64,000 nt of DNA. It comes from Aurantiochytrium sp. KH105 (taxonomy: Eukaryota; Sar; Bigyra; Thraustochytrida; Thraustochytriidae). Position numbers and translations under genes: made by a program. The notes below the pieces were generated by a model, which saw only the letters and a program-made list of their open reading frames with translations, had not been told where the DNA came from and searched no databases. The first letter of the stretch is position 1, and every line of letters starts with the position of its first letter. This document shows, piece by piece, positions 39,813 to 58,686 of this stretch. Location: the NCBI GenBank assembly GCA_003116975.1, contig BGKB01000060.1:84226-148225 (forward strand), written 5' to 3'.

Positions 39813-41729
39813 CACGCTGCTCTGCTGCTCCTCGCCGGCGCGCTCCAGCTCGCGGGGTCCGTTCGAGGCGTTTCGGGTTTGCCTCTCCGCGCGGCGAGCA
39901 AGCACGCAAGCGCGCAAGCAAGCGATCGTTCGTTCGATCGCTCAGTCAGTCCCGAGCCCTCTGCGCCTTCTTCCTTTCTTCATTTCAGTCCACAACAATA
40001 GGAGCCTCGTTAGTATCGGCCCGACATTTTGATATCATCACGGGGCAATAAAGGGCTGTTTTTCCGACATTGTGAGTATTGATAATAACATTTGAAAATT
40101 GAATTCATCGCTTGCAGAACCCTTTTTAAATAAGGGACAAGGGCGTTTTGTCCCGGGTGAGGGTTTTGACGTAAATGAGCGGCTGCGGATTGCAACACAA
40201 CGTGAAGAGCAGTGCGGACGCCCTGTTACTAAGCCACGAGGGCCAAAAAGGAATGAAAAGAGCCAAAATTGTTCAAATCTNCCAGCCGCGCTCTCTCCTC
40301 CCTCTGCCCGCCTCCTGGCCGGCCTTCCTCCCTCCTCCCTCCCTCCTCGAGCGCCTCAGGCTGAACCGCCGCGGGCGCCGCGTGCAACGACCAGGCGCCG
40401 CAGGCAGCCGCGAGCGGGCGACGCTCCGGCGCGGCTCGGCGCTCGCCCCTTTCTTCGGCTCAGCCGCGCGGGCTCAGCCGCGTCGCCGCCGAGGAACTTG
40501 TCTCGCACGATCTGCCAGTCGTGCCCGGCAGCTTTCTCCTTGCGCTCTCTCCCCAGCCAGGAGACCCTCTGAATCAGCAGCAGCAGCAGTGGCAGCTGGA
40601 TGGGCGGAAGTGGGCTATAGCGCGATGGCGCGCTTGCGGCGGCGGATAGCGCACTTGCGGCGCCAGGGAGGGAGGGAGGGATCCCGGGCCGCGGCGCATG
40701 GCTGGAAACGTCTCCGGCGGCGGCGGGTGCCGCGACTGCCCCGCGCGGAGCGGCGGCGGCTGACGGGCCTCGGCGAGACCCGGACCGCGCGCGCCGCAGT
40801 GCGCTGGCGCGTTCGCGGCCACGCGAGCTCGGGGCGACGGGCGGTCGGCGCGAAGGCGGGTTTCGGCGGCGCAGGAAGCCCGCGCAGGAAGCTGCAGCGG
40901 GAGGGTCGACGCGCCGAGAGCGACAGCAAAGACGACAGAGCCGGGCGCGCTCTGGCGCACAAGAAAGCAATCTAACAAGGGCCTAGACTGGCTGTTGTAA
41001 AATGGTGGTATAAAAGGCGGAAAATGCAAGTTTAGCTGGCTGGTTAGAGGATAAGGCATCCCGGCCCGGCTCGCACGTACCGGACCCGGAGGCGAGGAGA
41101 TTGTGGCAATATGCATGGCGGAAGGGTCTGGTGGGAAGAGTCACGACAAGGAAGTTGTAGGCAACGAAGTCGCTGCTGGTGCCGGCTGAAGATGATGAAA
41201 ACACCGGCAGCGGCCAGGACAGGAAGGAGATTGGAAAACCTGGAGAGCGTCGGGCTGACTGACATCGGGTTGACGGACAAGACGTCGCTGTCTGTCGATC
41301 GATCGCCACGATCGCTGCTGCACGCTACAAGCGAAGCAACTCGCTGGGAACACAAAGACAACAGACAACTGACAAGATCAAGATCATCAACAACTGCAAA
41401 CAGCATGGACGTCGTCTCGACGCCACACGAGTGGTGTGGCCACCACTTTCGGAGCTGTGCTCTGATCTGCTCTGCTCTGCTTTCATTCTTTTGCTTTGCT
41501 TTCGCGAGCTGCATGCGCCTGCGCGTGCTCTCGCTCGCTGTTGGCGCCCGCGAAGCACTGCACGCTGTGCTGCTGGCAGCTTCAGCGTCTCAGCGCACGC
41601 TCGCACGCGGCGATCGACAAGACCTCTTCTCTCGAGTCGTTCGGCAGAGGTGCGGTGCAGAGCTACGGCGAACCGCGAGGATCGGTGTCAGTGCAGCGAC
41701 AGCGAGCGGCCCTCGCTTTTGCCAATGTT

Positions 41730-41752
41730 GTCATGTCATGTCATGTCATGTC
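41730..41752. repeat. TCATG pentanucleotide array
   Basis: Four perfect copies of tcatg; the inverse complement of the array near 5575. Confidence 0.85.
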
Positions 41753-42840
41753 AGCGACAAAGCCCAGCAGCCGTGCTTGCTGCCAAGACGCTGACGGGAA
41801 GCGCAGCATCTGCAGCTGCAGCAGCAGCGGCAGCGGCGCTTCTGCAATGAAACAGCGAGTCGCTGAACGGGGAAAGAAAGAAAGAACCCCGAAGCTTCGC
41901 GAGGTGTCCTGACCTGAGCCGCTGCAGGCTCCTGGTGGTTGGGACGAAGGGCATGCTGACTCCGTCCTTGGAGCAACAGCTAGAAGAGCGCGCTCAAACT
42001 ATAGGTTGACGTAGTCCATCAACGTAGTAGTACATGGCGGCTGCGCGACTGCACGCACACGAGATTGCAATTTTTCGTCACGTATTCGCCCGACTTTTAT
42101 AAAATTTGATTTGCTTTATTTTGGTTTGCTTTGTTCATGCGAGAGGGCTCCGGGAGCACGACAGCGCGGCAAGAATGCACGAAGATACTTGCACGTGCGT
42201 GCCGGAGGCATCTCAGATGAAGCTGCAGCAGACTGGTCGTGACAATGCTGCGCAGAGCAGCGCGGTGATGAATGTGTGCGCTTGATGCACGCTCGCTGCT
42301 GCTGCTAGCCTCTCGAGCTTTTCCGCTGGCCTCGCACGCCTTCCTTTCTTTCCCCCGGAGTCGGAGTCAGCTGCAGCGAGTCTACGCATCGAGTTGGGGA
42401 GATGAGGTCTTCTCATCGCGGTCAGCTGTCCTGGCGGTTGGCAATGACCTCTGCCTTGCCTGCCCAGGGCAGCCAATGAAAATGCAGCAGGCCTGTCTGC
42501 ATTTGCTCGAGGCGAGGCCTATGTCAGAGTTTCCTCCGTCCGGCGTGCAGCGGCTGCGGGCCCTTCCATGGCAGACCTCTGAATGCCTCCACAGCCAGGG
42601 CTGCTGCCGAGCGGCGCCAGGCACGCGACCGCGACCGCAGCCGCCTCACTGCGCTGCGCTGCACTGATGAAAAATACATGCCCTTCGCGCTGCGCGAGAG
42701 AGAAGTCTGCACTGGCAATGGCTGGCCAAAGAAATCCGGCGCCGAGTCTTGCCACAGCTGCGACTCCCGGTCAGCCAGGGGTGGTATACGGTGCTCTGGA
42801 CGAAAAAGGGTTGTGCTGCTCGGTTTGCCAAGGCCTAGCA

Positions 42841-42903
42841 GCACGTCTAGCAGCACGGCTAGCAGCATGGCAGCATGGCAGCATGGCAGCAGCAGCAGCA
42901 GCG
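42841..42903. repeat. GCAGCATG / CAG array
   Basis: Repeated gcatggca units end in a short CAG triplet run. Confidence 0.7.
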
Positions 42904-44116
42904 AGAGGAATGGAGAAGCGCGGAGGCTGAGCAAGCTGGATGAGAACTCTGCCAAGTCCATGAACCAAGTCCCGTCTTCCTGGCGCATAGCTAGGCCATA
43001 CAGCCAAGCAACGCACGAGCATGAGAAGGTGGTTGAGTGACCAGGACACATAGACTACGTCCCGTTCCGTTCTGCGTTCTACTATGTGGCAGGCCGAGGC
43101 AAGCAAACGTCACCGGGAAAATTCCTCCTTTCTCCCGCAGACGCAGGGTAATCAACGCTCATGATGACATGAGTGGTTCCGGCCGGCGAATTTGTCATCG
43201 CTTTCTTCTTTTCACTTCACGGTTCGCGCCATGCTGATGGTGATAATGATAATGATGCTTTGGAGCGACGAAGACTTGGACCGGTGGTAGCCAGCACGGA
43301 TGTCAACACGCAATGTGCCCCAATAATTATTACTGGAGACAAACGCCACGCTAGCCAGCTTGCTAGCTAACGAGTCAGCCAGCCAACCAGCCAGGCCGAG
43401 CCGCAGCACGTCTTCATTGGAAAAACCCGAGGCGGTCTTCGAGAGTGACTTCATCATCTGCCGAGGCCGGCCAGCTGGCTGAGCAGCCAGCTGCAGCCAG
43501 AGCCACACCAACCAAGCTGTGCTGCCAGCGCCGTCATCGTCGCCGGCACGACGGCAACTTGGGACTCACCCTTATTACATCACGTGCAGCCGCAGCGCAC
43601 ACCTTCCCTCCCCCTCCCTCGCCGCGGTCTGCGCAACCCTTCTTCCCTCCCCTCCCCTTCAGCCGCGGCTGCGGCGCGAACGTCACCGCTCTCAAGCCCG
43701 AGCCGAGCCCGAGCTTGGCACGCCCGAGCCTGGCCCGCCCGCCCGCGCGAGCCCGCCCGCGTCGCCCGTCCGGCCGCGTCTTTCTCGCCGCCCTGCGGCG
43801 CGCCCTGCGGCCGCCGCCTCGCGCCGCGCCGCGCCCCGGTTCGCGTCGCTGCTTCTGGAGGCCGGCGGGCAGGGCCAGGCAGGCAGGCGCGGCGGCGAGG
43901 CGCAGCGGCGAGCGCTCTGACGTTTCTGGTCCCGCGGCCGTCCGTCCATCCGTCGACCGAGGCGCGCCCAGCCTGAAAAGGCCGCCGCCGCCGCTCCGGC
44001 GCGGCAGAACGGAGCGCCGCTGGAGCGAAGTCGGCCGCGCTGGCAGAGCTGGGACGAGCGCCCCGGCTTCGAGGGAGGAGGAGAAGAGCGCAGCGCATTC
44101 ATCGGGCAGAAGGCGA

Positions 44117-44169
44117 AGCAAAGCAGAGCAGAGCGGAGCAGAGCAGAGCAGAGCAGAGCAAAGCAAAGC
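44117..44169. repeat. AGAGC pentanucleotide array
   Basis: About ten copies of agagc/aaagc lie 75-127 bp upstream of the MetX start codon. It is the inverted counterpart of the array at 39766. Confidence 0.9.
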
Positions 44170-44243
44170 GCCAACTCCGGTGAGCTTGAGGAGGACCAGG
44201 AGAAGGAGAAGGGCGAGGAGAAGGCAAGGAAGGAAGAGACACG

Positions 44244-45647
44244 ATGCTCGCGGCGACGTCGAGACAGGCGCAGAGGAGCGCCGGCGCCGCGATGCTGTGG
44301 AGGAGGACGATGGCCAGCAGCAGCAGCAGCAGCAGCAGCGCCGCCTCGATCTCGGCCCCGCCAACCAGTGTGGACGCGAGCAAACGCAGCGGTAGCAAGA
44401 AGGAGAGCCCCGAGCGACGCCGCAGAAGCAGACCGGTGCACTCCGTGGCCGCGCTCCAGCCCGAGGCGAGCGCCGCCGTCGACGTTACCGTGGGAACCCT
44501 CTTTCCCAAGAACGAGTTCGAACTGTCCAGCGGAGCCAAGCTGGCCCCCGGTTCCGTGCGCATCAAGTACTCGATCATGGGTAACCCTGACGGCAAGAAG
44601 ATTCTTCTTTGCCCGTCCATGAGCAACAGCGTCCACGCCGTCGACGGCTTCGATCCCGATGACCAAAAGGACCACCGCGGTTGGTGGCGCCGCACCATCG
44701 GCCACGGACCAGAGTTCGGCATCGACCTTGACCACTTTCAGGTCATCGTCGGTGCACCCATGGGCTCACCCTTTGGGTCCACCTCGCCGCTCACACCCGG
44801 CGGACCCAACGGCGAGGAACCCCTTCGCGCAAAATTCCCGCTCATCACCCCGCGTGACCAGGCGCTCCACCAAAAGCTCCTGCTCGACGAGCTCGGCATT
44901 GAAAAGGTTTTTGCTGTCGTCGGGGGCTCCATGGGCGGCATGCAGAGTCTTCAATTTGCTGCCAACTTCCCGGACATGTACGACCGTTTCGTCGCAATCG
45001 CAGCCACCGCGCAGACCTCTCCCGGCACCGTCGCGCTGCGCTCCGTCCAGCGCCAGGCCGTGCGCATGGACCCTGATTTCATGAACGGCGAGTACAAGGA
45101 GAACCCCAAGCACGGTCTTGGCATCGCCCGCATGTTCGGAACCATCTGCTACCGCTCCCCCAAAGAGTTTGACGAACGCTTCGATTGGTATCCGAGTGTG
45201 CTCGAACAGTCTGGCGATGTTTCGTTTGAGGTCGAGCGTTACCTGCAGCATCAGGCGCTCAAATTCACGCACCAGGTCAACTATGACGCCAACTGCTACC
45301 TCCTTCTGTCCCAGAGCATGGACCTCATGGACATCGGTCAGAATGTTGGCACTTTTCAAGAAGGCGCCGCGCGCATTCCTCCCTCCAAGGCCGGAATGCT
45401 CCTCTCGTACAGCACGGATCGCCTTACCCCCGCCCAGGACCACGAGCGTCTTGCCCGCGTTCTTGGCCAGAACGATGTTCCTGTCCACTTTGAGGTCATC
45501 GAGTCCAAGTTCGGCCACGACGCTTTCCTCATCGAGAACGAGGCCCAGCCTCTCAACATCCGTCTCAAGGCCTTTCTTAACGCCAGCAACACCCCGCGCA
45601 GCGCTGACGCCGTGCACAGGCTTGTCAAGGACATGTTTGAGCACTAA
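44244..45647 (+). CDS. MetX-type homoserine O-acetyltransferase
   Basis: The protein has 467 residues. The first about 85 are Ser/Arg/Ala-rich (for example MLAATSRQAQRSAGAAMLWR), as in a mitochondrial targeting peptide. The rest is an alpha/beta-hydrolase of the MetX family: GWWRRTIGHGPEFGIDLDHF, nucleophile elbow VVGGSMGGMQ (Ser about 228), STDRLTPAQDHERLARVL (catalytic Asp about 391) and FGHDAFLIE (catalytic His about 426). The enzyme acetylates homoserine from acetyl-CoA for direct sulfhydrylation to homocysteine and methionine. The usual LGGCxGSTGP loop is replaced by APMGSPFGSTSP, so acyl or amino-acid preference (for example serine or succinyl) could differ. Further ATGs within the leader at about 44292 and 44310 are alternatives. 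Confidence 0.85.
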   Translation: MLAATSRQAQRSAGAAMLWRRTMASSSSSSSSAASISAPPTSVDASKRSGSKKESPERRRRSRPVHSVAALQPEASAAVDVTVGTLFPKNEFELSSGAKLAPGSVRIKYSIMGNPDGKKILLCPSMSNSVHAVDGFDPDDQKDHRGWWRRTIGHGPEFGIDLDHFQVIVGAPMGSPFGSTSPLTPGGPNGEEPLRAKFPLITPRDQALHQKLLLDELGIEKVFAVVGGSMGGMQSLQFAANFPDMYDRFVAIAATAQTSPGTVALRSVQRQAVRMDPDFMNGEYKENPKHGLGIARMFGTICYRSPKEFDERFDWYPSVLEQSGDVSFEVERYLQHQALKFTHQVNYDANCYLLLSQSMDLMDIGQNVGTFQEGAARIPPSKAGMLLSYSTDRLTPAQDHERLARVLGQNDVPVHFEVIESKFGHDAFLIENEAQPLNIRLKAFLNASNTPRSADAVHRLVKDMFEH

Positions 45648-46043
45648 TGTCGATTCCCTTTCACCTGTGACCTCTTTTCGTTTGTTAGACCGTTCGGGTC
45701 CAACTTTACACGTGCACGGCTCATTCGTTCATTCAGTCACTCACTCACTCTGTTCCATTCCTTCCCCCCCCCCCCCCCCCAAAAGAAGAAGAAGAAAAAA
45801 AGTACACAGACAACCTGCTAATCAGGGTAGTACGACTACGGTGGAACTCGCTGTAAAGTAGACGCTACGCATACGACGGTAGCAGCTGGCTGGCCAACAT
45901 GAAGAGAAAAAAAGACTTCCGAACATCGAAAATTATGAAATATTGTATTCCCTCCCCCTTATTCTCAATGTCTCCGTCTCTCTACACACGAAGAGTTTCT
46001 ACACGCCATAAGGGAAGGCATCTTCTCTTCTCTTCACCTTGCT
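45648..46043. other. Convergent 3' spacer, MetX and FANCM-like gene
   Basis: This contains a 17-nt poly(C) run at 45764-45780 followed by an A-rich stretch. No gene is seen. Confidence 0.5.
45764..45780. repeat. Poly(C) tract, 17 nt
   Basis: Seventeen consecutive C lie 117 bp after the MetX stop. The length and placement match the tract after borealin. Confidence 0.9.
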
Positions 46044-49000
46044 TCACTTGCTGCGCCGTAGAAGCGAGGTCACCATCAAACCCGCCATCTGCATCGAAAG
46101 TCCGGGAACCTGCTCCATGACTGACTTGGCCTTGAGCGTCTCCAGCACATCTTGCAAGGTCCGCCCGACATTCTGCGCAATCAATCGTCGGGCCACCGCC
46201 AGATTTGCCCCAGGTAGTAGCATGATAAATTTGATCACACGCATGTGGGCTTCAGACATGTCTTCGGACGCAAGACCAAGCGCACGCAGCCCGAAACCCT
46301 CACGCTCTTCGACCGTGCTCATGTGTTGCAATAACTGCACTGTTTCGTCCACACTCGAGGTCATCACGGTTTGCACGCGCGACCAACTTTGCGCTTGCAT
46401 GTACGCCCGGAAAAACTTCTCGGCAAAAGTGTCCTCGCTTCGCGTTTGCAAGTCAACCCCGTCCTCTTCATCGTGCTGCACGACAAGAACTGGCCGACAA
46501 AAAGAACCCAACAACTCCACAACGAGCTCGTCCAACAAGCATCGTACTTGTTGTTGCTGCGATCCAGATTGCGCATGTCCTCGGGCACTCCCAAATCCAG
46601 CCGTCGTCTTTCCCTGAAATGACGACGAGGACGACGAGGACGACGCTGCCGGTGCAGACGCAAGCTGCATCAAGCGGCGCTGCGAGAGAATGCAGACGCC
46701 AACGCGTGAACCAAGCACAAAATCAGCGCCTTGCAGCGAGAAATCACGCACCATCTTGACATCAAATCGTCTTCCGTGCCGCATTTGCCGGCACACGGCC
46801 GTAATATCGCGTCGTTTCGCATGAGCGTCAGCCCATACAAGCTGGGCCGGTCCACGGGAGCTCGATTGTTCCACACTTGTATTGGCTTCCAGCAGGGACG
46901 CAGAAGAAGACACGCCTGATGACACATTGTCGGGACTTTTGATCACGGCCCTCTCGTTGCAAGCGCTTGGTGGAACAGAAACAGGCTCCGACTCTATGTT
47001 CATGCTCAGATCCGCCTTGCGCGTCGAGACCTCCTCAACATCAGCGTCGAGCTCAACCACCATCTCCTTCATTGCTGCAGATTCCGCGACGCCGTTCTTT
47101 GTGCTTTGCACGTGTTCCGCCTGTGGAACGCTCTCGCGTGGCGGCGGCCCAAGGTGCACCGACTGTGGTGAGTCGGCCAGCACTTTGCGCCGGCCCACTT
47201 GTGCCGTCTCTAGCTTCGTGGGTGTTGGCCCAAAGTCTTGCGATTGTGAAGAGTCAGCCAGTACTTTGCGTTGGCGGAATCTCTTCACCTCGTTTCTCGC
47301 CTCGGGCGTTTCCTCGCTCGACGAATCAAGCGCCTTGCCCTTGATGGGCGTCGGCCCAAAGTCTTGCGACTGTGAAGAGTCCTCCATCACCTTGTGATGC
47401 CGTAATCGTTTGCCGCCGCCCCCTAGGACCACTGAGTTAGAGGATTTCGATGTTGACGTCGAAGACGGCGATGACGCTGAACTAGACACTTGTCCCATTT
47501 TCGAGAAACCGGCGTTCTTGCTTTCCAAGTTCACGCCTGCAATCGCTCGCGAATTGAGCTCGCGCAAGTGCGCGTCAATAATCGGCATGTTAAAACGCCG
47601 TCTCCCAAAGCCAGTCAAACCACGCGGGGACTCCATGAGCGAACGTCGGTAAATGTCAGGACTATGTGCCGCGTCACTGTCACTTCGGCTTGCTGAGCGC
47701 TGCGAGCTATCGTCAATCAGGCCCTTCAGGTTCCCGTCTTCATCTTCGTCTTCGTCGGCGCCCTCTTCGTTCTCATCCGAACTTGCGCCTCCAGAGTCTT
47801 CGGCCTCATCTTCAAAGAAACGTGCATTTCTGCGGTCACTTGACTTCTTCTTCTTCTTCAACAATGTCACGCCTTTTCTCAGCTTGAGTAGCTTCTTGGG
47901 GCGCATTGATTCGACGGATGAAGGGCGCTCACGGCTTTTCTGCGTCTCCAACAAAGCAACACGCTTTGACGATGACGGTGACGCCGATCGCGAGAGGTCC
48001 ACCGCAATTACATCTTCGGCTGCCGGGCTCTCTTTGACTGCGGACGCAAGACCCAAGGCGCCAAGCCTGGGTCTTTCCGCCCAAATTCGCGGAGTTTCCG
48101 CGGAGAGCTCGGTGTCATCTACTTTTTTCGCAGACAATGTTGAAGCAGCAGTGAGAATACTTGCCGGGGCCGGGGATGGCATTGCCACGACAGGCGTTTT
48201 ACTTGGCGGCGGCGGCGTCACACTGGCGGACGGGGTCGCCGCAACATTTGGTGATGCGAGCAGCGCACGCGGAGCCACATCGTCTTTTCCCAGAGCTTGC
48301 GATGATGCACCGCCGCTTCCTATGGCCAGAGAACTCTTAGTTTTCTCCTTGGACAATGAGTCCATCAACGAAGATACACGAGTATGCTGCTCAGCCGGCA
48401 CAAGGCCTTCTTCCATCGAATATGACTCTGAACCTGAGGCGTCCTTGGCGACAGCCAAGGCTGGATCCGCGCTTGTTTTCGTCGTCTCTCCTGCAGAGCC
48501 GTGCAATGATGCGGGTCTTGCTTTTGCTGGTCGCGAGGGGCTTCCTGCTTTTGCGCATGTTAGCACGTCACCGTCTTCTTTGGGCCGTGTGTTGCGCTCG
48601 AGCCCTTTTTTCTCGACGATGAGCGGCACCTTCTCTGGCGACTTGGTGACACCGGGAGAATGTGTCTTTGCGCTGGACGGTGCGGCCACCAGCGTGCTGC
48701 CACGATCTTGCACCGTGGAGGTCGCAATCATCATATCCTGTTCCGCTGGAATTTCTGATACACGTGCAGCCTTGGTCGTTATTCCAAGAGTTTGGTCGCG
48801 TGCAACGCGCGCACGAGACTCGCCAACCTTGCTTACATGGAAGGCGCAATATCGAAAGGTGAGCGTGGCGCCAGCATCTCGAGCACACGATGCATGAAAT
48901 CGAAAAGAGCAGCCATCTACGTCACACTCCACACAAGCTCCAACGCGCCGACCGCAAAAGGAGCACGAATGCCGGTGCAAGCTAAGTCTGCGTGACATGT

Positions 49001-52000
49001 CGATATCGCGCAAAACCCCGTCGCGGTCAAATGTGAGAGATATCTGGGGGTTCCACCAGGAACACGCGGCGTGAACCCACGCTCGATCTTTATAAAGTAC
49101 AAGGGCGCCATTCTGGTTGGGACAAAGAAAACAGCTACGCTCGGGACTTCCGCGTTGGCATGGCGCGCATTGCCAGGTTTTAGCATCGGTAACAACTGTG
49201 CCAACGCACCGCGCGTGCACACGCACGTGGCAACTACGCAGACCATGACATTGTAAAAGTTTGCCTCGGCTTGCTGATCCGGGCTCTCCACAACAGGAAC
49301 AAATGTCGTCAGACGCGCAGCCGCGTCGCGTGCATCCGGTCGTGCGATACGCAACGGGAGGCATGGCAATGTCCTCCTCAAAGAGTGAGGCAACATCATC
49401 AGAATCAGAGTCATCCGCAAAACTGATGGACCCCTGTTTGAGACCATCGATGTCGCTGACACCATGGTCTCCAGATACATGATTCCCATTAAGCACGTTT
49501 GGCACAACGATTGCTGGCGCGGGGACTGATGAATGAGCAAGCTCGTTTGGAGGCGCTGCGGATTTCACAGAGTTCTCTTTTCCACCTTCCTTCGTAGCAG
49601 GACTCGCCTCGGCAACGGCGATTGCGAGACGAGGAGTGGACGCGGACTGACGACTGATATCCGATTCGGCGCCTTGTTTTGAGGGTGATTGACTGATCTC
49701 TGCTGGAGAAGTGTTAACGATCGAAATCGAGGGACTTCCCGCGCTAGCGTCCGGACCCGTGCACCCGGTGCTCTCGGAACGCGACTGCGAGGGAGAAGTG
49801 GAGGCCTCCGCATACGATTTACCAACCTTCGCTTGACGCGGTCTCGCCGATCCGCAAGCCCTATCTTCGAGTCCGCTTTTCGCCACAGGATGCGCAGGGC
49901 TCTTTACCGAGCTTTCCGTGAGAACGTGATCAACCTCGATACCCTTGACGAGCTGGTCCTCTGCCACACCTTTTTCAGACCTAGCCTCCAGAATGTATTT
50001 GAGATTATACGTTTGCTCACTTTTGTTTACGCGCGTGACGCGTGCGGTGCCGCCGGGTTTGAAACCACGTCCAGGACGGCGTTTGATCGTAACGCAATCG
50101 CCTACGCTAAACTTTGGTTTCCAATGCTCGCTCTCCTTGTACATCTCAGCATGTTCCATTTCCTTATTCTCAGCATGGCCGCTTTCCTTTGGCGTAGGAC
50201 TCCTTCTCTTCCTTGTCACTGAGCTTTCGTCATTCTCTACCACAGATTTGATGCTGCTTTTTGGCATGGGCCTGTCAAGGCTCACGAGTGATGTTGCTGA
50301 CGATGCACTGACAATTCCTTCCTTGACCTCTTGATGCGTAGAAGAAGACTTTGGCGTTTTGTGGCTTTTCGACGTTGGAAGGGCGGCATCTTTATCAGCC
50401 TGCAGAGGCTTTCGTGCGGTCTCCAAGGCCTGAGCGGGGCCTGCGGCTTGCGGCCTCTCGGCAGCCAGGTCTTTGTCTTCTTGCAAGGTCTTTGCTAGTC
50501 TTTTGGGAGAATTTTGAGCGGGGACACGAGCATCATCAGAGAGTCTTGAACGACGCTGCTGCTGCTGCTGCTGCTCTTGACGACTGTGCTCATTGTCGAG
50601 TTCATGAACCACAACGTCCTCCTGCGAATCCGCATCGAGATTGAATTTGGGTGGCAACGTAGACATTGAAGGCGGTCGACTCGGCGCACAACTCATGTGG
50701 GCTGCATCATCCTTGTCGTCCTTGACGTCGTCGTCACCGTTATAATCGTCGCCGCCAATAAAGGCTTCTTCATCGAAAAGATTGACATCTGCAGCTGCTT
50801 CTGCTGCTTCTGCAGTTGTTGTGTCGTGACCCATGTTCCGCTCGTCTTCAGCTGATGCGTCTCGATCCAATCTGTCAAAAGTCTCCTTCTCTTTAGCATT
50901 GTTCGGAGCAGCATCCAAGTCGATGACACTCGGGTGCGGCGATTCGCAAGGCTCGTTAGAGAGCGCCCAGACTCGCCGGTCAACATAGAGCTTGATGCGC
51001 TCGTATGCCTTGCTGCGCGAGGAGGACGGAGCTGCACGTCGTGACCCCAAGATGAGCTTGTCTCGTCGATTGAACAGGGAGAACGTGAAGAGGTCGGGCG
51101 CTGGTTTTCTTGACGTCTGAACAAAGTCCGCGTAATACTTGTTCTCACGCGGGGAGAACGGACGCAACGGTGTCTTGAGCTCCACCCAAGTATTCTTTGC
51201 CCGCTTCTTGGACTTGTCGGTGTCATCGCCCTTGGACTTTCGCTTCTTTGGGGTAACTCCAGCGACTTGGGAGGCACGAAAACTACCAATCTCGAGCTCC
51301 TTGTACTCTACCTGAGGAACAATACCTTTGGGAACCATGCGAGGATTTGAACCGCGATGCAATGTCAAAGTGCCAAGCTTCTCGCGCAAAAGACGATGAA
51401 TCTTGTTTGAACGCTCCGTGCCGGCTGTGAGATCATTCTTCTCCTTGCCGTGACTTACTAGGAGAACGACGGATCCACTCCGCTTACGTCCAGCTCGCCC
51501 AAAACGCTGCACCATGCGGACGGGCGACTTAAGCGAGTCAAAACACACGATGAGATCTACAGAACCAATGTCAAGACCCTCCTCGCCAATGCAAGTCGCC
51601 ACGAGAATGTCAAGCGCACCAGCTTTGAACTTGTTGATAATTGCCTGTTGCTCACGTTGGCTCTGGCCCTTCGTCGCAACAGACTCCTTGCCGCCTTGCT
51701 TAGATGTTGCCGCCGATTGCCGCGATTGGCCCGGAAGCCCGAAATTTTCGTCCCCACCATTTCCCAGGAAACCGGTGTCGTCATTCTCGTCATTTTCACC
51801 GGCGTCGTTGTCATCGTCGTCGTCGTCATCGTCGATCTCGTCGGCAAGTGCGGCGGATGCCTTGGCCATTTTCATTTTCGACTTTTCCTTGGCCGAGGTG
51901 GTCGAGCGTTGGCCGACAAAGGGGGAGACGCGCAAGTCTGTCTGCGCCTCAATCACTGCCACCAAACTCGCCACAGTGGCACGGCTATGCGCAAAAACAA

Positions 52001-53882
52001 TGCAGCTTGTTTGCTGGCTAGCCTCTCCCATGCGGCGAAAATGCGCAGTAAGAATCTCCAAGAGTTTGGCGACCTTTGGGTTGCAATCGGGGTCATCACG
52101 ACGCAGACGAAGGTCGCCTAAAAAGCTACGAAAACGGTCCGTCTTGGCGATGCGCTCAAAGACCGCATTGATATTGGTCTTCGCCAAGGTTTGCTCAAAG
52201 TGGAAAAGCATCCCGGCCACGCCCTCCACTGCGAGATACTTGATGCCAGTCAGCAGCGTACTGAGTGCACCCAACTCAGCCGTGACGCGTCTTATAGCGG
52301 GCACAGGGGCCGTCGTACCGTTTTGATAGAGCCACGACCGCGCAGTGACAATCATTTCGGGAGATATTTTATGGACTGCGCGACGCAGCATAGGAGGGCA
52401 ACAACTGCTCGCCTGAATGCTTAGGTAGACGGGCTTTGCCAAATCATACAGCTTGGTCTCTACATCTTGCATGCCCCCACTTGACTTGACGTCGATAATT
52501 TGAATCAGTTTGTTGAATACGTATGGTTTGACATCCGGATCCATCTCCGCCTTATACTCAAGATTTGCCACGTGCAGATTATCCACAACCTCCTGGACGC
52601 GTGCCTTGTCGTTGCCGGGTGTCGCACTGAGCGCAAGGATGCGAAAGTTTCGAGTCTTCGATCGAAGTTCTTTGATCAAGTTCGTGAATGCATAGTTGCC
52701 CGTTGCACGGTGCGCTTCGTCAATTACCACGCACACCACTTCTTCCATGGGGACGAGGCCCGTCTTGCAGTCGTTCTCTGCCGTCTGAGGTGTGCAGTAA
52801 AACAGTCGCTTTGTCTTCCAGTGCTCTTTACGCTTCGAGGCCGCAATGTTGCCCATCATGCGCCCCGTCAGAGATTCGTCAATGCCGACAATTTTATGGC
52901 ATGCCTCAACTTGCTGAGACACGAGCGGTTTGGTGGGTGCCACGAAGATGACCTTGCCCGTCGGGAACCATCGCATTATATTGAACATGACCACTGCAGC
53001 GATAAAGGTTTTGCCAAGACCTGTAGGCAGGACGACAAGTGTATTTCGCAAAAGCGCGGCCCTTACAATGGAGAATTGGTACTCGCGCTTCGGATAAGAT
53101 TCGCTCGTGGGATAGACCCAGGTCTTGATTGCCTCTGCATCATGCGGCATCTGCACTGCTGGCCCTGCGAACTCGTCAAAGCTGTCATTACCATCTTCGT
53201 CGTCGTTGTCATCATCTGGGCCGCGCGAGGCGAAAGACCAAGGGGTTTGCTTGTTAATGGAACCAAGGAACGAGGAACGCGCCTTCTTCTTGTGGTTTAC
53301 ATTCTCCCGAGGTCCCGCGTTTGCAAACGTGGCCTTACTCGTTGTCGAGCCACCTCGACTCGGAGGCATCCTCGGGGGCGCAGATGCAGCTGCACTTCTG
53401 TAGTTCATGGGGAAAGAGCCGGTCTTTGATGCCCGAAGCCCGGGATCCTCGTCGAGATCGATTTCCACGACGGCAGACGACGACTTTGGCCGTGTTGCTG
53501 TCTTCGGGGCTGCCGTTGGCGTTGCTGCTGCGGAGACGCGTTTGGTGAAAAATTTGCTCGAGCTGCTTTTCGCGTTTGTAGTACTCGAGATTGACGCACT
53601 TTTGTTCGCTGGGGTTGCGGTTTGCGGGCTGTTGCGGCTCGACACCTTCGATACAGTTGCGCTTGCGCTGGGTTTTCCACAAAACTCGCAAGCACGGCCA
53701 TAACTCTGCGTGCTCGTGAACCCACAGGAGCACTCGTTTGCACGCTTCGATGATACCCTTGATGCCAACGCAGGCGACTGAGACTTGTTGGGTTTGGGCT
53801 TCGCCTTGGTTTGCGCGTGCGTACTCTCCACCTGTTCCAGCATTGCAAAGAGGTCTGGGTTTTCAAAGGGGTCTGCGCTCAT
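46044..53882 (-). CDS. FANCM-like SF2 helicase fused to Tudor-like, PHD and ePHD modules
   Basis: The protein has 2612 residues and no intron; the start is the ATG at 53882. A small Cys cluster (CSCGFTSTQSYGRACEFC) lies at about 47-67. Residues about 260-840 are the SF2 helicase: VVLPTGLGKTFIAA (about 285), VVIDEAHRATGNYAF (about 387), LALSATPG and motif VI VQRFGRAGRKRSG (about 797), with an acidic insert (about 684-711). This is the FANCM/Mph1/Hef family that remodels forks and R-loops. A Tudor-like barrel follows at about 1247-1314 (FSVGDCVTIKRRPGRGFKPG). A PHD finger lies at about 1510-1560 (ICSCCGEPG, CHVRVHARC, WQCAPC) and an extended PHD at about 1570-1684 (CFLCPNQNGALV, WVHAACSWW, CSFCGRRVGACVECD). 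C-terminal are a degenerate ERCC4 domain (about 2346-2517) and helix-hairpin-helix (about 2544-2607). Confidence 0.85.
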   Translation of the reverse strand: MSADPFENPDLFAMLEQVESTHAQTKAKPKPNKSQSPALASRVSSKRANECSCGFTSTQSYGRACEFCGKPSASATVSKVSSRNSPQTATPANKSASISSTTNAKSSSSKFFTKRVSAAATPTAAPKTATRPKSSSAVVEIDLDEDPGLRASKTGSFPMNYRSAAASAPPRMPPSRGGSTTSKATFANAGPRENVNHKKKARSSFLGSINKQTPWSFASRGPDDDNDDEDGNDSFDEFAGPAVQMPHDAEAIKTWVYPTSESYPKREYQFSIVRAALLRNTLVVLPTGLGKTFIAAVVMFNIMRWFPTGKVIFVAPTKPLVSQQVEACHKIVGIDESLTGRMMGNIAASKRKEHWKTKRLFYCTPQTAENDCKTGLVPMEEVVCVVIDEAHRATGNYAFTNLIKELRSKTRNFRILALSATPGNDKARVQEVVDNLHVANLEYKAEMDPDVKPYVFNKLIQIIDVKSSGGMQDVETKLYDLAKPVYLSIQASSCCPPMLRRAVHKISPEMIVTARSWLYQNGTTAPVPAIRRVTAELGALSTLLTGIKYLAVEGVAGMLFHFEQTLAKTNINAVFERIAKTDRFRSFLGDLRLRRDDPDCNPKVAKLLEILTAHFRRMGEASQQTSCIVFAHSRATVASLVAVIEAQTDLRVSPFVGQRSTTSAKEKSKMKMAKASAALADEIDDDDDDDDNDAGENDENDDTGFLGNGGDENFGLPGQSRQSAATSKQGGKESVATKGQSQREQQAIINKFKAGALDILVATCIGEEGLDIGSVDLIVCFDSLKSPVRMVQRFGRAGRKRSGSVVLLVSHGKEKNDLTAGTERSNKIHRLLREKLGTLTLHRGSNPRMVPKGIVPQVEYKELEIGSFRASQVAGVTPKKRKSKGDDTDKSKKRAKNTWVELKTPLRPFSPRENKYYADFVQTSRKPAPDLFTFSLFNRRDKLILGSRRAAPSSSRSKAYERIKLYVDRRVWALSNEPCESPHPSVIDLDAAPNNAKEKETFDRLDRDASAEDERNMGHDTTTAEAAEAAADVNLFDEEAFIGGDDYNGDDDVKDDKDDAAHMSCAPSRPPSMSTLPPKFNLDADSQEDVVVHELDNEHSRQEQQQQQQRRSRLSDDARVPAQNSPKRLAKTLQEDKDLAAERPQAAGPAQALETARKPLQADKDAALPTSKSHKTPKSSSTHQEVKEGIVSASSATSLVSLDRPMPKSSIKSVVENDESSVTRKRRSPTPKESGHAENKEMEHAEMYKESEHWKPKFSVGDCVTIKRRPGRGFKPGGTARVTRVNKSEQTYNLKYILEARSEKGVAEDQLVKGIEVDHVLTESSVKSPAHPVAKSGLEDRACGSARPRQAKVGKSYAEASTSPSQSRSESTGCTGPDASAGSPSISIVNTSPAEISQSPSKQGAESDISRQSASTPRLAIAVAEASPATKEGGKENSVKSAAPPNELAHSSVPAPAIVVPNVLNGNHVSGDHGVSDIDGLKQGSISFADDSDSDDVASLFEEDIAMPPVAYRTTGCTRRGCASDDICSCCGEPGSASRGKLLQCHGLRSCHVRVHARCVGTVVTDAKTWQCAPCQRGSPERSCFLCPNQNGALVLYKDRAWVHAACSWWNPQISLTFDRDGVLRDIDMSRRLSLHRHSCSFCGRRVGACVECDVDGCSFRFHASCARDAGATLTFRYCAFHVSKVGESRARVARDQTLGITTKAARVSEIPAEQDMMIATSTVQDRGSTLVAAPSSAKTHSPGVTKSPEKVPLIVEKKGLERNTRPKEDGDVLTCAKAGSPSRPAKARPASLHGSAGETTKTSADPALAVAKDASGSESYSMEEGLVPAEQHTRVSSLMDSLSKEKTKSSLAIGSGGASSQALGKDDVAPRALLASPNVAATPSASVTPPPPSKTPVVAMPSPAPASILTAASTLSAKKVDDTELSAETPRIWAERPRLGALGLASAVKESPAAEDVIAVDLSRSASPSSSKRVALLETQKSRERPSSVESMRPKKLLKLRKGVTLLKKKKKSSDRRNARFFEDEAEDSGGASSDENEEGADEDEDEDGNLKGLIDDSSQRSASRSDSDAAHSPDIYRRSLMESPRGLTGFGRRRFNMPIIDAHLRELNSRAIAGVNLESKNAGFSKMGQVSSSASSPSSTSTSKSSNSVVLGGGGKRLRHHKVMEDSSQSQDFGPTPIKGKALDSSSEETPEARNEVKRFRQRKVLADSSQSQDFGPTPTKLETAQVGRRKVLADSPQSVHLGPPPRESVPQAEHVQSTKNGVAESAAMKEMVVELDADVEEVSTRKADLSMNIESEPVSVPPSACNERAVIKSPDNVSSGVSSSASLLEANTSVEQSSSRGPAQLVWADAHAKRRDITAVCRQMRHGRRFDVKMVRDFSLQGADFVLGSRVGVCILSQRRLMQLASAPAASSSSSSSSFQGKTTAGFGSARGHAQSGSQQQQVRCLLDELVVELLGSFCRPVLVVQHDEEDGVDLQTRSEDTFAEKFFRAYMQAQSWSRVQTVMTSSVDETVQLLQHMSTVEEREGFGLRALGLASEDMSEAHMRVIKFIMLLPGANLAVARRLIAQNVGRTLQDVLETLKAKSVMEQVPGLSMQMAGLMVTSLLRRSK

Positions 53883-55129
53883 CTTGGCCTCCGCAAGCCC
53901 CGACAGAGCCAACGCAGTAGTCTCCTCGTCTGCTCTCGCGCGCTGGAGCGCGAGCTGGAGCGTGAGCTCGCGCTCTCACTCCAACAGGGGCTGCGCCGCC
54001 TCTCTTGATTTTCGAAATCCGCGACGTGCCCAACCACCGCCGAGGGATCCCGCACCGCCGAGCGGCGCTGGAGGCGCGCGCGCGCACGCGCGTCGCGAGG
54101 ATGCCACAGGAGGACGCGGCGTCCGGAGCCTACACGGGTCGGTCGTGCAGGCCAGCCGGAGCGCCGCGGCTCGCGAGCCAGACTCCTGGCGGTCGCGGGT
54201 CTGTCTCCGCCGTCTGGCAAAGAAAGCAACGCCAAGGAGATCGATTTTGAATTTTCCGAGCTCCAAGGTGAACATGCGTTGCGCACACCGCGGACGAGAA
54301 CGAGGCCTAGCTGCCATGAAGAGAGGGAGAGGGATTTTAAGTATAGGCCTATACCACCGGGTGCCCGGCCTTCCGAGTCGATTTTCTTTCGTTTCTACTT
54401 GCAAATGAATGATGTAGTGTCCCAATTGTGAGTGGAGGGCATTCTCATTCTCAGATGAGTTGCTGTACATGGGACGCTGCGGTTAAGTTGGTGTGAAGTA
54501 GTGACAGAGATTCGACGTTCGTGCAAACTTGGTCTAAGCTCTAGTTTGAAACGACCTTGTCCAACAGTGCTTGCATACCACGATGATTTGATCATGCTTT
54601 GTCACTCTGTCTCACTGTCTATAAGTTAGACAACTTAAGCCTTTGTCGGCAATAGCAAAATAGTACCAATCTTCTCGCGTCGTGACCGGGTGAACCTAAT
54701 AATAACATCACACGACAATAATCTTCGAGACCTCAGCGGCAAAGGCTATTCTCGGCGTAGCTATCTCTGCTCGACGGCGTCGTCCCTGCAATATGTGATT
54801 TCTTGCGCACTGCCTGATCAAGGCTTCTTCTCACTGGGAGAGCCAGGGCTCAGCTGAGCTGACTTGGGCTCGGAGGGCCTCTCAAAATTCGTAACGGCTG
54901 GCAAACACGGATCACAGCAACAGCAACTCGGACGAACCGCGACCTTGCTCGCGCGCGCGTTCGAGGCACGGCAGCGTTGAGCCCCGCACGAGCAGGGGAG
55001 AGACTCTGCGGCCGCTTGTCTTGAATAGGTCTCGCGAGGAAGAAGACGACGACGACGACGACGACGACGGTGGTCACTACTAGAGAAGAACAGGCTTCTG
55101 CGTGGTGATCATTATTGCACCGCGCGACG
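53883..55129. promoter_or_regulatory. Divergent intergenic region, FANCM-like gene / coiled-coil gene
   Basis: This 1.25-kb stretch contains a GC-rich part (53930-54200), two AGGCCTA motifs (54303, 54343) and a GAC triplet array (55045-55069). Nothing coding is supported. Confidence 0.45.
55045..55069. repeat. GAC triplet array
   Basis: Eight perfect gac copies lie about 60 bp upstream of the coiled-coil gene start. Confidence 0.85.
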
Positions 55130-56038
55130 ATGACAGATGTGGAGCCGCGTGGGCTCCTGGCGCGCGCAGAAGCGACGCTGCGCCGTAGCCGCGGCCTCGA
55201 GGACGACCTTACCGGCGAGGCAGACCCCGACACAGGCACGGTCGGCGTACGTAAGTCCCCAGAGTCGTTGACAAGACTCGTGAATGCGCTGCGCGCCCCA
55301 GAACTTGAGGCCCACCGTGAGCTCTTCGAGGACCTCTTCGAGCTGGCCGTTCTAGACGTGCGAAAGTTCGAGTCCGCCGTGCTCAGTGAAAGCGAGAACT
55401 TGCGCCGCGAAAACGCAGAGCTACGCCGCGAACGCGACGAGGCCCAAGCGCAGCTTCTTGCTCTGACCGATCGCCAAACACGAGTTGGAAAGCGCGAGAA
55501 GCGCGCAAGGGCTCTGGAGCGAAAACTCGACGCAGAGGCCAGGAGACTTCAGGCTACCGAGACGCGCCTCAAGCGCTCGGCGTCCCGCGTATTGCCGCCC
55601 AATCCGGACGATTCGGGCGCCCTCCGCTCAAGTCTCTTCGCATATATGCGGGACTGCGAGGGCCTCGTCGGCAAGCCACAAGACGCGGTCCAGGTCCGCA
55701 CGGGCCTCAACGAAAGCACAAACTCGCACACTGTCCAGGGCGCACTTAAACGGCACTTTCAAGGGGTTGAAGCAGCCTTTAATCAGCTCATACGCAGTTA
55801 TCAAGACGAAATCGCGGCCATGTCCGACAACACCGCGCGGCCGAGCAACGGTGCCTCGGCGGCCGCACGAATGCGCGAGCGCAAGGCGCAACGCGAAAAG
55901 GACACCCTTCTGCAGGCCATGCAGACCATCAACAGTCTTGCGGAGGGCCTGGTACAACATCCGGACCTGCAGGCCAACACAGAGGTGGAAATGATCCGAC
56001 GAATCGCACAAGGCGCACAGGAAAGTCCTATTATCTGA
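55130..56038 (+). CDS. Uncharacterised coiled-coil protein
   Basis: The protein has 302 residues with no family I recognise. Residues about 65-160 form a long charged coiled coil (heptads in LRRENAELRRERDEAQAQLL and ALERKLDAEARRLQATETRL). A second helical part spans about 165-285 (AFNQLIRSYQDEIAAMSD, RMRERKAQREKDTLLQAM). There is no signal peptide or TM segment. The C-terminal third is conserved-looking (GALKRHFQGVEAAFNQL), suggesting a folded helical domain rather than only a rod. It lies convergent with the kinesin-9 gene, with only 88 bp between the stops. A cytoskeletal or centrosomal role is possible but not shown by the sequence. The frame upstream of 55130 has only a TTG, so that ATG is used. 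Confidence 0.65.
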   Translation: MTDVEPRGLLARAEATLRRSRGLEDDLTGEADPDTGTVGVRKSPESLTRLVNALRAPELEAHRELFEDLFELAVLDVRKFESAVLSESENLRRENAELRRERDEAQAQLLALTDRQTRVGKREKRARALERKLDAEARRLQATETRLKRSASRVLPPNPDDSGALRSSLFAYMRDCEGLVGKPQDAVQVRTGLNESTNSHTVQGALKRHFQGVEAAFNQLIRSYQDEIAAMSDNTARPSNGASAAARMRERKAQREKDTLLQAMQTINSLAEGLVQHPDLQANTEVEMIRRIAQGAQESPII

Positions 56039-56126
56039 CCGCTTTGGGGCATGTATAAATCCAGACACAAAACTCGAGTAAATCACCAGCTACAATTGCA
56101 TGTCGCTTCCATCGTTAATTGCTCAG

Positions 56127-58493
56127 TCATGCAGACGGAATGAGCCATTCCTCAAAAGCGCTCGCGGCCCGCTGCCGGCAGCTCTTGACAGCTTGCGTGG
56201 CAAAGGCAATTTCCGACTTGACCTCCTTGAGTGCGTCGGTCTGGAGACGGTACTCAGCCTTTTGGGCGCGCAATGTCTCAATCAGATCGTGAGACGGAGC
56301 CCCTTCTTCGGCATGCACACGCTGCAAGCTCTCATCGAGCGAAGCTTTGGCAGCTTTGACATGTTCCTTGATTGTGCGAGACCGTGCTTTCATCTCAACG
56401 AGACCACGCTTTGCGTCTTCGAGCGCAGAAAACAAAGGTGCGCCGACCTTGGCATCCATCTTGAATGTTGCAAAGAGTTTTTCTCTTTCCGCAGCGTCCA
56501 TTTCCTCGGAGACCCTAGGATCTGCGACGCTCGCCGGAGAGCCTTCGTTGGCGCCCTCGCTCAGTCCTCGGCGCCGAAATACATCCTTTCCCTCTCTGGC
56601 ATCCTTGCGTTCTTCATGCTCGTCATCTCCTTCTTCACGAGCACTACTATTGCGACCATGCGAACCCTCTTGTCCATCATGCTTGCGCGGTCGTGGTCCG
56701 GGACGCGGACGCGACGATCTTGGATGCCCACACAAAGGTGGTCGCGGGGTAGGCGACTTGGATAAGCCTCGTTTCGACTTGCTCGAGTCTAGTGTTTCCG
56801 GCGCCAGCTCACAAGAAGTCTCTGCGTGCGGCGCTCGCGCGGATATCCGATACTGTGCCAGAGCTCGTTCTGCACTTTCGCGCGCATCATTCGCAGCGAG
56901 TGCGTTCTCGCGTGCAAGCTCTAAGATTGTAAACACATGGCGAAGACCCTGAATACCAAGCTTGTGCGCATCCCCGTGCTTCATGAACTGCGCAACGTCA
57001 TTTCGAAAGGTGGAAATGGCTTCTTTGCTGAACGGAGCATGCTGATAATTTGAAACCTCATAAAAAGCATCCCGAATGGCCAGCTCTTCGCGAAGCATGC
57101 GAATCTCGTCCTTGTACGCCTGCACGACTTTGGCTCCAGCGCCGTTGGGCCCTTCCAGATCGCTGCCCATATTGTTGCGGACAGGTATGTTTTTTACGCG
57201 CATCATTCGCGTGGCAAACTTGAGCGTTGCCAGAGTCTGCTCGGCATGACTAACTGCTGGCCACACGCAGGCAATCAGGAGACTCTTGCAGTTACCGCCA
57301 AGGGAATCTTGCAAAAAGTGGGTCAACAGACTCTGTCGATAGGGAATGTGTTCGCGCCGTTTGTCACCGAGAGCAACAACGACCTGCTCCAGAAATGAGA
57401 GCGACTTGTTGATTGCTTTTGCCTCTTGCAAGACCGAACCAAGCGAATTGGTCTTTAGAACTCTTTCTGAGCCGGCCAGGTCGACGAGGTGTAGTTTTGC
57501 GCTCGTGACGCGCTCACGCATAATTCCTGTCTCGGACTCTGCTTCGGAGAACCGGCGCTCCACCCATAGCGTGACAATACAATGCGACCGTGTTGAAGAG
57601 TAGTTGAGTTCGTGGGAAGCAATGGCTCTGTTCATGTCGCCTTCAAAGAGACACGCCAGAGCCTCCTCCTCTGATCGCACCGTGCGTCGACTTAGACCGA
57701 GAAGCGTCGTTCCCTCTTGCGCATGAGTCGCAAATTGAAAGCTCGACCGGAGCATCTGTTTTGAAGTGCTCCGCGGCCGATTGCGCGAGGAAATGTCGCG
57801 CTCCATGGCAGCCCTGCCGATTTCGTCTGGCTCCTCTTCGTCATCGTCGCTGCCTCCGTGATTATTTCCTGCTTTTGCGCGACGCTTTGAAGAGGCTGTT
57901 TGTCCATCGCTCTCGGCATCGGCTGATAAAAGGTCGTAGCATTGCTCCTTGTAAATTTCGAGATACGACATGCGAATTGTATAGACAGCATCAGCAGCAC
58001 TTTCGACTGCGCGGAAAAGTGCTGTGATCGATCGAGCCGCGAGCCCGCGCGTATGTGGATCTGCGTTGCCTGGTTTGCCCATCATGGTGAAGGTTTTTCC
58101 TGCACCCGTTTGACCATATGCAAAGATTGTGCCATTGTAGCCGTGTAAAACTCCATCAAGCAAGGGCGGGACGCTACCCTCGAAGACGTCTTCCTGCGTT
58201 GCGTCAGGGGCGAAGACACCGTCAAACTTAAAGGCCCACCTTTCTTCGCCGGCATCAACCTTGCCATGGGCGTGTCGCGGATCGCGCTTGACACGCACGT
58301 TGACGCTCCTTTGCGCGGGCTCCAGCGTCAGGGCTGCACGCGCGTCGGGAGGACATTCAGGCGTCAATGCAGACACCTCGGACGCGTCGACTGGTCGAGG
58401 TCGCACCAACACGCGCACGCGTTGCGTTTTACGGTCAGCGTTCGCGCCTGCGCTACTCGCTGGCGTCCTCGGTAGCGCTGCCGCAGACGCCAT
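56127..58493 (-). CDS. Kinesin-9 family motor (KIF9/KIF6-like)
   Basis: The protein has 788 residues. The N-terminal motor domain (about 25-440) has the ATP site FAYGQTGAGKTFTMMG (about 125), switch I NYSSTRSHCIVT (about 298), switch II LHLVDLAGSER (about 335) and the microtubule-binding HIPYRQSLLTHFLQDSLGGN (about 380). The ending LATLKFATRMMRVKNIP is typical of kinesin-9 (KIF9, KIF6, Chlamydomonas KLP1), which work in the flagellar central pair and in motile cilia. After a helical neck (KDEIRMLREELAIRD), the tail is an Arg/Ser/Glu-rich linker and a last coiled-coil segment. An insertion with basic and acidic runs lies between ATP site and switch I. This implies a flagellated stage. The ATG at 58493 is used since the frame upstream has only GTG. 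Confidence 0.88.
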   Translation of the reverse strand: MASAAALPRTPASSAGANADRKTQRVRVLVRPRPVDASEVSALTPECPPDARAALTLEPAQRSVNVRVKRDPRHAHGKVDAGEERWAFKFDGVFAPDATQEDVFEGSVPPLLDGVLHGYNGTIFAYGQTGAGKTFTMMGKPGNADPHTRGLAARSITALFRAVESAADAVYTIRMSYLEIYKEQCYDLLSADAESDGQTASSKRRAKAGNNHGGSDDDEEEPDEIGRAAMERDISSRNRPRSTSKQMLRSSFQFATHAQEGTTLLGLSRRTVRSEEEALACLFEGDMNRAIASHELNYSSTRSHCIVTLWVERRFSEAESETGIMRERVTSAKLHLVDLAGSERVLKTNSLGSVLQEAKAINKSLSFLEQVVVALGDKRREHIPYRQSLLTHFLQDSLGGNCKSLLIACVWPAVSHAEQTLATLKFATRMMRVKNIPVRNNMGSDLEGPNGAGAKVVQAYKDEIRMLREELAIRDAFYEVSNYQHAPFSKEAISTFRNDVAQFMKHGDAHKLGIQGLRHVFTILELARENALAANDARESAERALAQYRISARAPHAETSCELAPETLDSSKSKRGLSKSPTPRPPLCGHPRSSRPRPGPRPRKHDGQEGSHGRNSSAREEGDDEHEERKDAREGKDVFRRRGLSEGANEGSPASVADPRVSEEMDAAEREKLFATFKMDAKVGAPLFSALEDAKRGLVEMKARSRTIKEHVKAAKASLDESLQRVHAEEGAPSHDLIETLRAQKAEYRLQTDALKEVKSEIAFATQAVKSCRQRAASAFEEWLIPSA

Positions 58494-58686
58494 CGGCTTA
58501 GCAATGCGTGCAATCGTAATCTGTCTCACACGGCGACGCGAGCGCTAGCATCGATTAAGGCGCGCGGACTCACTCCCTTTCCGCTGCCGTGTCAGACCTG
58601 TCTAGTTTGTCAAAGTCATTTGCGAAACCCCAAAACTTGTAACGGCATTAATTTTTACTTTTTACTGTGAGACAATCTGATGAGGC
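58494..58686. other. Kinesin promoter and 3' end of the nuclease-helicase gene
   Basis: This short spacer lies between two minus-strand genes. It carries an AGGCCTAT motif at 58683-58690 next to the stop of the nuclease-helicase. Confidence 0.4.

Follow-up and report, generated by a model that had tools for sequence, protein, structure and literature searches.

FANCM acts on forks in chromatin, and to our knowledge its contact with nucleosomes is little understood beyond its histone-fold partners. The locus described here lies in a 64,000-nucleotide stretch of the genome of Aurantiochytrium sp. KH105 (the window), and it raises the question of whether a FANCM helicase can carry chromatin-type zinc fingers within its own polypeptide, and what such fingers would bind. 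A natural FANCM with a module of this type in cis would make nucleosome contact testable in one protein.

A FANCM-type helicase in one long frame

An uninterrupted frame occupies 46044..53882 on the minus strand of the window, from an ATG at 53882 to a stop codon ending at 46044, and encodes 2612 codons plus stop with no intron needed. In the six-frame list the same frame is read from a TTG (46044-53912, 2622 codons), with its first Met at 53882. Residue numbers given here are those of this longer product, P0001, counted from the TTG at 53912, so that the Met is residue 11 and numbering from the Met is lower by 10. The sequence-only reading had claimed a single 2612-codon frame and gave no strand for it. 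The frame held up, and its strand is now established. In 200 shuffles of window positions 40000-60000 the longest open stretch had a mean of 218 and a maximum of 376 codons, and the other five frames across 46044-53912 are open for at most 414 codons. The second haplotype copy (L018 610-8490, minus strand, contig C1) carries the same frame, open throughout its 2617 codons including the stop. Many of the genes searched across the whole genome were found as pairs on two contigs, resembling a diploid assembly in which both haplotypes are retained. As a lineage marker, the tandem acyl-carrier array of PUFA synthase was looked for: the 31 ACP matches listed included no long tandem array, a result that speaks neither for nor against a thraustochytrid, and the title of PMC8660808 names a thraustochytrid that is PUFA-synthase-independent.

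Residues 263-880 (51273..53126, minus strand) make up a FANCM/Hef-type SF2 helicase core, in which the motifs LPTGLGKT, a DEAH box, SAT and QRFGRAGR were located. A Pfam scan of the whole protein placed DEAD at 279-434 and Helicase_C at 747-810. Compared with 177,635 distinct solved-chain sequences, the protein matched human FANCM best (9el5; 347.1 bits, E = 1.4e-102), with archaeal Hef second (1wp9; 199.6 bits, E = 4.2e-58); after these two, no other chain among the best 60 of 225 exceeded 87.3 bits. The best NCBIfam model was Hef nuclease NF010337, at 334 bits against its own full-length cut-off of 610. Pfam, solved chains, NCBIfam and motifs thus agree on the family, and the FANCM-type motifs that had been noticed by eye are genuine.

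When the genome was searched with the helicase piece, 14 matches were obtained at E ≤ 1e-5 from the 74 of 104 candidates that were scored. Two of them are the gene itself and its C1 copy, and the remaining 12 are pieces of helicases, none stronger than E = 7.7e-8. We thus identify the gene at 46044-53882, on the strength of its sequence, as the FANCM of this organism and the only one found among the 74 of 104 scored candidates. In viral contigs, nine stretches matched the pattern used for the helicase and four that used for the zinc-finger module described below, and none of them encoded a relative.

Relatives of the FANCM partners were found in the same genome. MHF1 (CENP-S) was matched at E = 1.1e-16 on contigs C94 and C82, with a model that also matches in two of 14 control genomes, both archaea, and may pick up histone folds. 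MHF2 (CENP-X) was matched at E = 1.3e-8 on contigs C142 and C127, with a model that matched in none of the 14. No MHF-binding family appeared among the Pfam matches of the protein at E ≤ 10, a scan in which HMMER filters can lose weak matches, and a comparison of residues 844-1103 with the PDB returned one unrelated chain (E = 1.2).

The C-terminal region, residues 2348-2622 (46047..46871, minus strand), was assigned as an ERCC4-like pseudonuclease followed by an HhH-like end. With the last 243 residues, four solved chains were obtained at E ≤ 10. The top three were FANCM structures (4m6w, 9hjo and 4bxo; E = 0.055-0.081) and the fourth was unrelated (E = 1.5); with a longer C-terminal fragment all three FANCM chains were found again, at E = 0.066-0.096. 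As the FANCM matches span only about residues 2464-2574, the HhH-like end was assigned by eye, and Pfam reported no family for the C-terminus. The sequence CILS aligned opposite ERRS of human FANCM, in a sub-threshold alignment piece scoring -2.4 bits, and is therefore compatible with a pseudonuclease. A single-sequence AlphaFold model of the C-terminus had a mean pLDDT of 38.6 and was used for no fold claim. Of the ERCC4-like and HhH end that had been proposed, the first part is thus weakly matched and the second is a reading by eye; the C-terminal match to FANCM is suggestive, not strong.

Two further elements lie ahead of this region. An acidic element at residues 2025-2095 (47628..47840, minus strand) appears strongly constrained, with one difference between haplotypes in 71 residues against 40 in 324 across residues 1701-2024 (Fisher p = 0.004, with boundaries set post hoc). 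We take it to resemble the acidic stretch ahead of the ERCC4-like domain in animal FANCM. In the linker ahead of the ERCC4-like region, residues 2173-2258 (47139..47396, minus strand) hold three imperfect repeats, RKVLADSSQSQDFGPTP (repeat family D2), with SQ dipeptides, which might act as a motif for docking or phosphorylation.

Elsewhere in the window, a frame of 1445 residues (58687-63024, minus strand) was considered as a candidate FANCM partner and rejected. It ends in a UPF1-like SF1 helicase, has a very weak Cas4-like match (E = 0.23) towards its start, and looks like a UPF1-type helicase. Two large frames in divergent orientation (16385-21391, minus strand; 23954-29419, plus strand) both contain a TmcB-type TPR domain and are perhaps a duplicated pair.

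Zinc fingers and a Tudor-like segment in the linker

A PZP module lies at residues 1535-1692 (48837..49310, minus strand), in the long linker that separates the helicase from the FANCM C-terminus. It is made up of PHD1 (1538-1585), a zinc knuckle (1594-1617) and an extended PHD2 reaching to 1692. In the whole protein Pfam PF13832 matched this cluster at E = 9.1e-18. JADE1 was matched at E = 2.5e-17 with the whole protein and at E = 7.4e-19 with the fragment, and all 11 distinct solved chains found with the PZP fragment at E ≤ 1e-5 were PZP proteins (JADE1, JADE3, NTO1, BRPF1, AF10 and PHF14). Taken alone, PHD1 falls below the Pfam cut-off of 24 bits, at 10.6 bits in the whole protein and 20.0 as a fragment.

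By alignment, 20 zinc ligands were read at residues 1538, 1541, 1555, 1561, 1566, 1569, 1582, 1585, 1594, 1597, 1614, 1617, 1650, 1653, 1663, 1668, 1673, 1676, 1689 and 1692, the last of which comes from the own-genome alignment and lies beyond the reach of the solved-chain alignments. They follow the order C4HC5HC5HC2H, which is the ligand order given for the BRPF1 PZP in the part of PMC4705663 cited here. The two Cys/His clusters described earlier as PHD and extended PHD are therefore real and jointly form one PZP. Their supposed kinship with PHD-extended PHD pairs of chromatin proteins was likewise upheld, JADE, BRPF and NTO1 being the best relatives. Sequence comparison thus places the PZP, and a small basic domain preceding it, after the helicase and ahead of the FANCM C-terminus.

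We know of no PZP or Tudor-like domain among the features of animal FANCM. A search of the open-access literature by titles and the starts of abstracts among the best matches listed, with subscription papers and protist protein databases beyond its scope, found no report of a FANCM with chromatin-type fingers. The core finding of a FANCM combined with a PZP holds, and its novelty falls short of proven.

Other proteins with such fingers were seen in this genome. Besides FANCM, a second motor protein is so equipped, an SNF2 ATPase frame (L022 211-6111, plus strand, contig C19; copy on C3) that combines PHD, NSD-type PHD and extended-PHD fingers. A partial frame (L021 1-4407, minus strand, contig C7; copy on C119) encodes an SDG2-type SET protein whose PHD/extended-PHD pair lies close to the N-terminus.

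The small basic domain lies at residues 1266-1332 (49917..50117, minus strand) and has a computed pI of 9.73. The stretch FSVGDCVTIKRRPGRGF, previously called a Tudor-like barrel, is present in the translated frame. As a single sequence the segment gave nothing significant, with NHase_beta_C (E = 0.066) as the best Pfam match and E = 0.39 as the best in the PDB. A six-sequence profile gave nothing better than E = 0.077 in Pfam and, in the PDB, a designed repeat protein only (E = 0.0086, with no stretch passing alone). A single-sequence AlphaFold model (mean pLDDT 45.7) was unusable for fold claims.

The segment represents an undescribed domain type that recurs within the genome. A genome-wide search gave 12 matches at E ≤ 10, two of which are the FANCM gene itself. 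The best other pair, on C190 and C13 (E = 1.2e-9 and 3.1e-9), aligns with the FANCM segment at 44% across 64 residues, a match of E = 3.8e-13 when only a small set was compared. It belongs to a 1291-residue frame (L036 2498-6373, minus strand, contig C190; copy on C13) with a RING domain at 46-92, the Tudor-like domain at 798-860 and two BRCT domains, a layout that, judged by its domains, would be BRCA1-like with an extra domain. A further gene (L040 1798-3078, minus strand, contig C114; copy on C16) encodes two copies of the Tudor-like domain together with a winged helix of MCM3 type (PF23191, E = 1.4e-7, from the C114 form, the copy scanned, with L038 left out); its product is a possible replication factor. 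No Pfam domain was found at E ≤ 0.01 in the C7 form of a relative on C7 and C119. A weak relative on C2 and C194 (E = 0.004, 35% over 54 residues) is matched by Agenet in the aligned part of its C2 form (E = 9.4e-9). Agenet is a relative of Tudor, and this match therefore speaks for a Tudor-class fold. The weak match on C29 had E = 0.07. When the C7 copy served as query, 34 matches were obtained; 10 fell in these same genes, and the remaining 24 were short and weak and lay in other, mostly repetitive, frames. In the six-row alignment D-x-V, R, G-x-K-x-G-G and Y-x-L are invariant, one row being one residue shorter in G-x-K-x-G-G. The proposed barrel is thus undemonstrated by Pfam, PDB or structure prediction, and the Agenet-bearing relative points weakly in its favour.

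Possible binding targets of the module

In the cited part of PMC10124903, the first finger of the BRPF1, AF10 and PHF14 PZPs holds residues 1-6 of H3, and section 20 of PMC4705663 also gives PHD1 a role in binding the H3 N-terminus. The latter source, in the sections drawn on here, reports a pI of 4.1 for BRPF1 PHD1 and of 8.3 for its zinc knuckle-PHD2, which binds DNA. For PHD1 of the KH105 FANCM (1535-1590) we computed a pI of 8.53, against 4.23 for JADE1 and 4.59 for NTO1; PHD1 in a JADE/NTO1-like PZP of the same genome, on C129, has a pI of 4.12. Over the Pfam span the FANCM finger has a pI of 8.77 on one haplotype and 8.95 on the other, above all 40 PHD stretches listed from its own genome. 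Those range from 4.05 to 8.16 (33 below 6 and two at 8 or above), in a set that is biased toward well-recognised PHDs, excludes FANCM PHD1 and draws on both haplotypes (about 20 distinct stretches, from fewer genes).

The acidic PHD1 with Asp or Glu after the third Cys, as in readers of the H3 N-terminus, was not found in FANCM. Its third ligand is followed by His (Cys-His), against Cys-Asp/Glu in JADE1, NTO1 and the C129 PZP, and its fourth ligand is delayed by three residues relative to JADE1 and NTO1. Departures near these ligands are not peculiar to FANCM, since the C129 PZP has two extra residues at the same spot and Cys-Val is found in the SDG2-type PZP on C7.

The sequence-only reading had the fingers tether fork remodelling directly to histone marks. 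With PHD1 basic and Cys-Asp replaced by Cys-His, this claim is weakly supported at best, and the module appears unlikely to read the H3 N-terminus in the usual manner. A broader form of it would have the PZP read the unmodified H3 tail, at residues 1-6 through PHD1 or at 20-28, and so direct fork remodelling by histone state. The full PZP signature favours this reading, as do the H3-binding PZPs of BRPF1, AF10 and PHF14 (PMC10124903, as cited above) and the JADE1 and JADE3 chains 8ge0 and 11af, which are named as H3.1 constructs. The 20-28 mode, described for AF10 and PHF14 in the same part of PMC10124903, uses the interface of PHD1, knuckle and PHD2 and does not rest on the acidic groove of PHD1 alone. 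Against it stand a PHD1 pI of 8.5-9, compared with 4.1-4.6 in BRPF1 (published), JADE1 and NTO1, together with the Cys-His and the three additional residues before the fourth ligand relative to JADE1. On balance we consider it unlikely that the module reads H3 in either way, the 20-28 mode being the less improbable of the two.

According to section 21 of PMC4705663, the BRPF1 PZP binds both DNA and nucleosomes by means of basic residues in its zinc knuckle-PHD2, with K383, K390 and R392 needed for the DNA binding. The corresponding part of FANCM has a computed pI of 8.62, and that of JADE1 9.18. By alignment reading, one of the three DNA-contact counterparts in FANCM is basic: R392 corresponds to R1656, adjoined by R1655, K390 corresponds to G1654, and K383 falls in a gap. 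In the discussion section of PMC4705663, JADE1, AF10, PHF14 and ATX1a are suggested possibly not to bind DNA, as they have no such residues. A basic knuckle-PHD2 is consequently no proof of DNA binding, because JADE1 has a pI of 9.18 and is thought possibly not to bind. Since the FANCM PHD1 has no acidic surface for holding H3, we infer that binding to DNA or the nucleosome surface would be likelier than reading of the H3 N-terminus. Binding of the PZP to DNA or nucleosomes is plausible.

Our preferred reading, to which we give a probability of about 0.45, is that the PZP serves to anchor the branch-migrating helicase to nucleosomal or linker DNA beside a stalled fork or crosslink. The predicted anchor would supply a chromatin contact in cis, adding to the contacts FANCM makes through MHF1-MHF2 and through the ERCC4-HhH tail. 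Among the points in its favour are the basic PHD1 (pI 8.5-9), knuckle-PHD2 (8.62) and Tudor-like segment (9.73). Another is the nearest Tudor-like relative, which lies in the RING-BRCT-BRCT protein, a further repair-type layout. Speculatively, and with a probability we regard as low, FANCM in this lineage could carry a built-in nucleosome clamp, in which an H3-reading finger has turned basic and DNA-facing and a common chromatin signal, involving the shared Tudor-like domain, aims remodelling and recombination, unlike in animals. One type of Tudor-like domain is shared by FANCM, the BRCA1-like RING-BRCT-BRCT protein and the MCM3-type winged-helix protein. Its occurrence in both FANCM and the BRCA1-like protein is a hint that a group other than the usual model organisms may use a chromatin signal linked to repair.

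The divergent PHD1 and the single basic match among the three BRPF1 DNA-contact residues would also suit a module that docks proteins, for example a repair or replication factor, instead of binding chromatin, and the Tudor-like domain does occur in the protein with an MCM3-type winged helix. All 11 solved PZP relatives at E ≤ 1e-5 are chromatin proteins, however, and the module is basic in composition; we think protein docking rather improbable.

The two haplotypes allowed constraint on the module to be compared with that on its surroundings. The whole protein has 129 residue differences in 2611 and a dN/dS of 0.30. Indels between the copies were taken from a protein alignment, which makes them whole codons of necessity, and the evidence lies in the open frames. 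Differences number two in 618 residues of the helicase, one in 67 of the Tudor-like segment, five in 158 of the PZP and six in 275 of the C-terminus, and none of the 20 zinc ligands differs. The Tudor-like segment and PZP together have six differences in 225 residues, against 77 in 909 of the flanking linkers (p = 0.0015); taken separately against the linkers they gave p = 0.036 and p = 0.022, respectively. These values come from domain boundaries that were tightened between two runs. With the first, wider boundaries the Tudor-like segment and PZP together had eight differences in 240 against 76 in 955 (p = 0.011), and the PZP alone six in 160 against 76 in 955 (p = 0.07). Across residues 1261-1340 and 1525-1700, silent changes make up 10 of 19 (p = 0.009, tested against one in four), and in the PZP alone five of 12 (p = 0.16). 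The dN/dS was 0.11 for the Tudor-like segment, 0.43 for the PZP, 0.15 for ERCC4 and 0.32 for the N-terminus, compared with 0.52-0.79 for linkers around the module and 0.44 for linker 2181-2340. The module has changed less than the linkers, which supports one functional protein, in tests of modest power that is least for the PZP.

An artefact, in which the helicase and the fingers are transcribed separately, an in-frame intron removes the finger region or the module rides along as a neutral passenger, might be suspected from the very great length of the frame and is highly improbable, given that the frame is unbroken on both assembled haplotypes, that FANCM-like sequence flanks the PZP on both sides (weakly on one) and that the module has changed less than the linkers.

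Comparison with known systems

Archaeal Hef belongs to the same helicase family as the KH105 protein (1wp9, E = 4.2e-58; NF010337, 334 bits). Hef is an active nuclease, and we know of no fingers in it; its ERK-type catalytic triplet reads CIL in the KH105 FANCM, in a sub-threshold alignment. With animal FANCM the protein shares the helicase core seen in the human enzyme (E = 1.4e-102), and MHF1 and MHF2 relatives are likewise encoded in the genome. The MHF-binding region that follows the helicase in animals went unrecognised here, in Pfam at E ≤ 10 and in the PDB for residues 844-1103, and the C-terminal ERCC4-like region of animal FANCM (4m6w, 4bxo) is matched weakly.

The nearest relative of the Tudor-like segment is in the RING-Tudor-like-BRCT-BRCT protein of the same genome, but that protein has neither a helicase nor a PZP in Pfam. 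JADE1, JADE3, BRPF1, NTO1, AF10 and PHF14 have the same PZP signature as the KH105 FANCM, but there it belongs to chromatin proteins, acetyltransferase subunits among them. The basic PHD1 of the KH105 FANCM contrasts with an acidic one in JADE1 and NTO1 (by computation) and in BRPF1 (as published).
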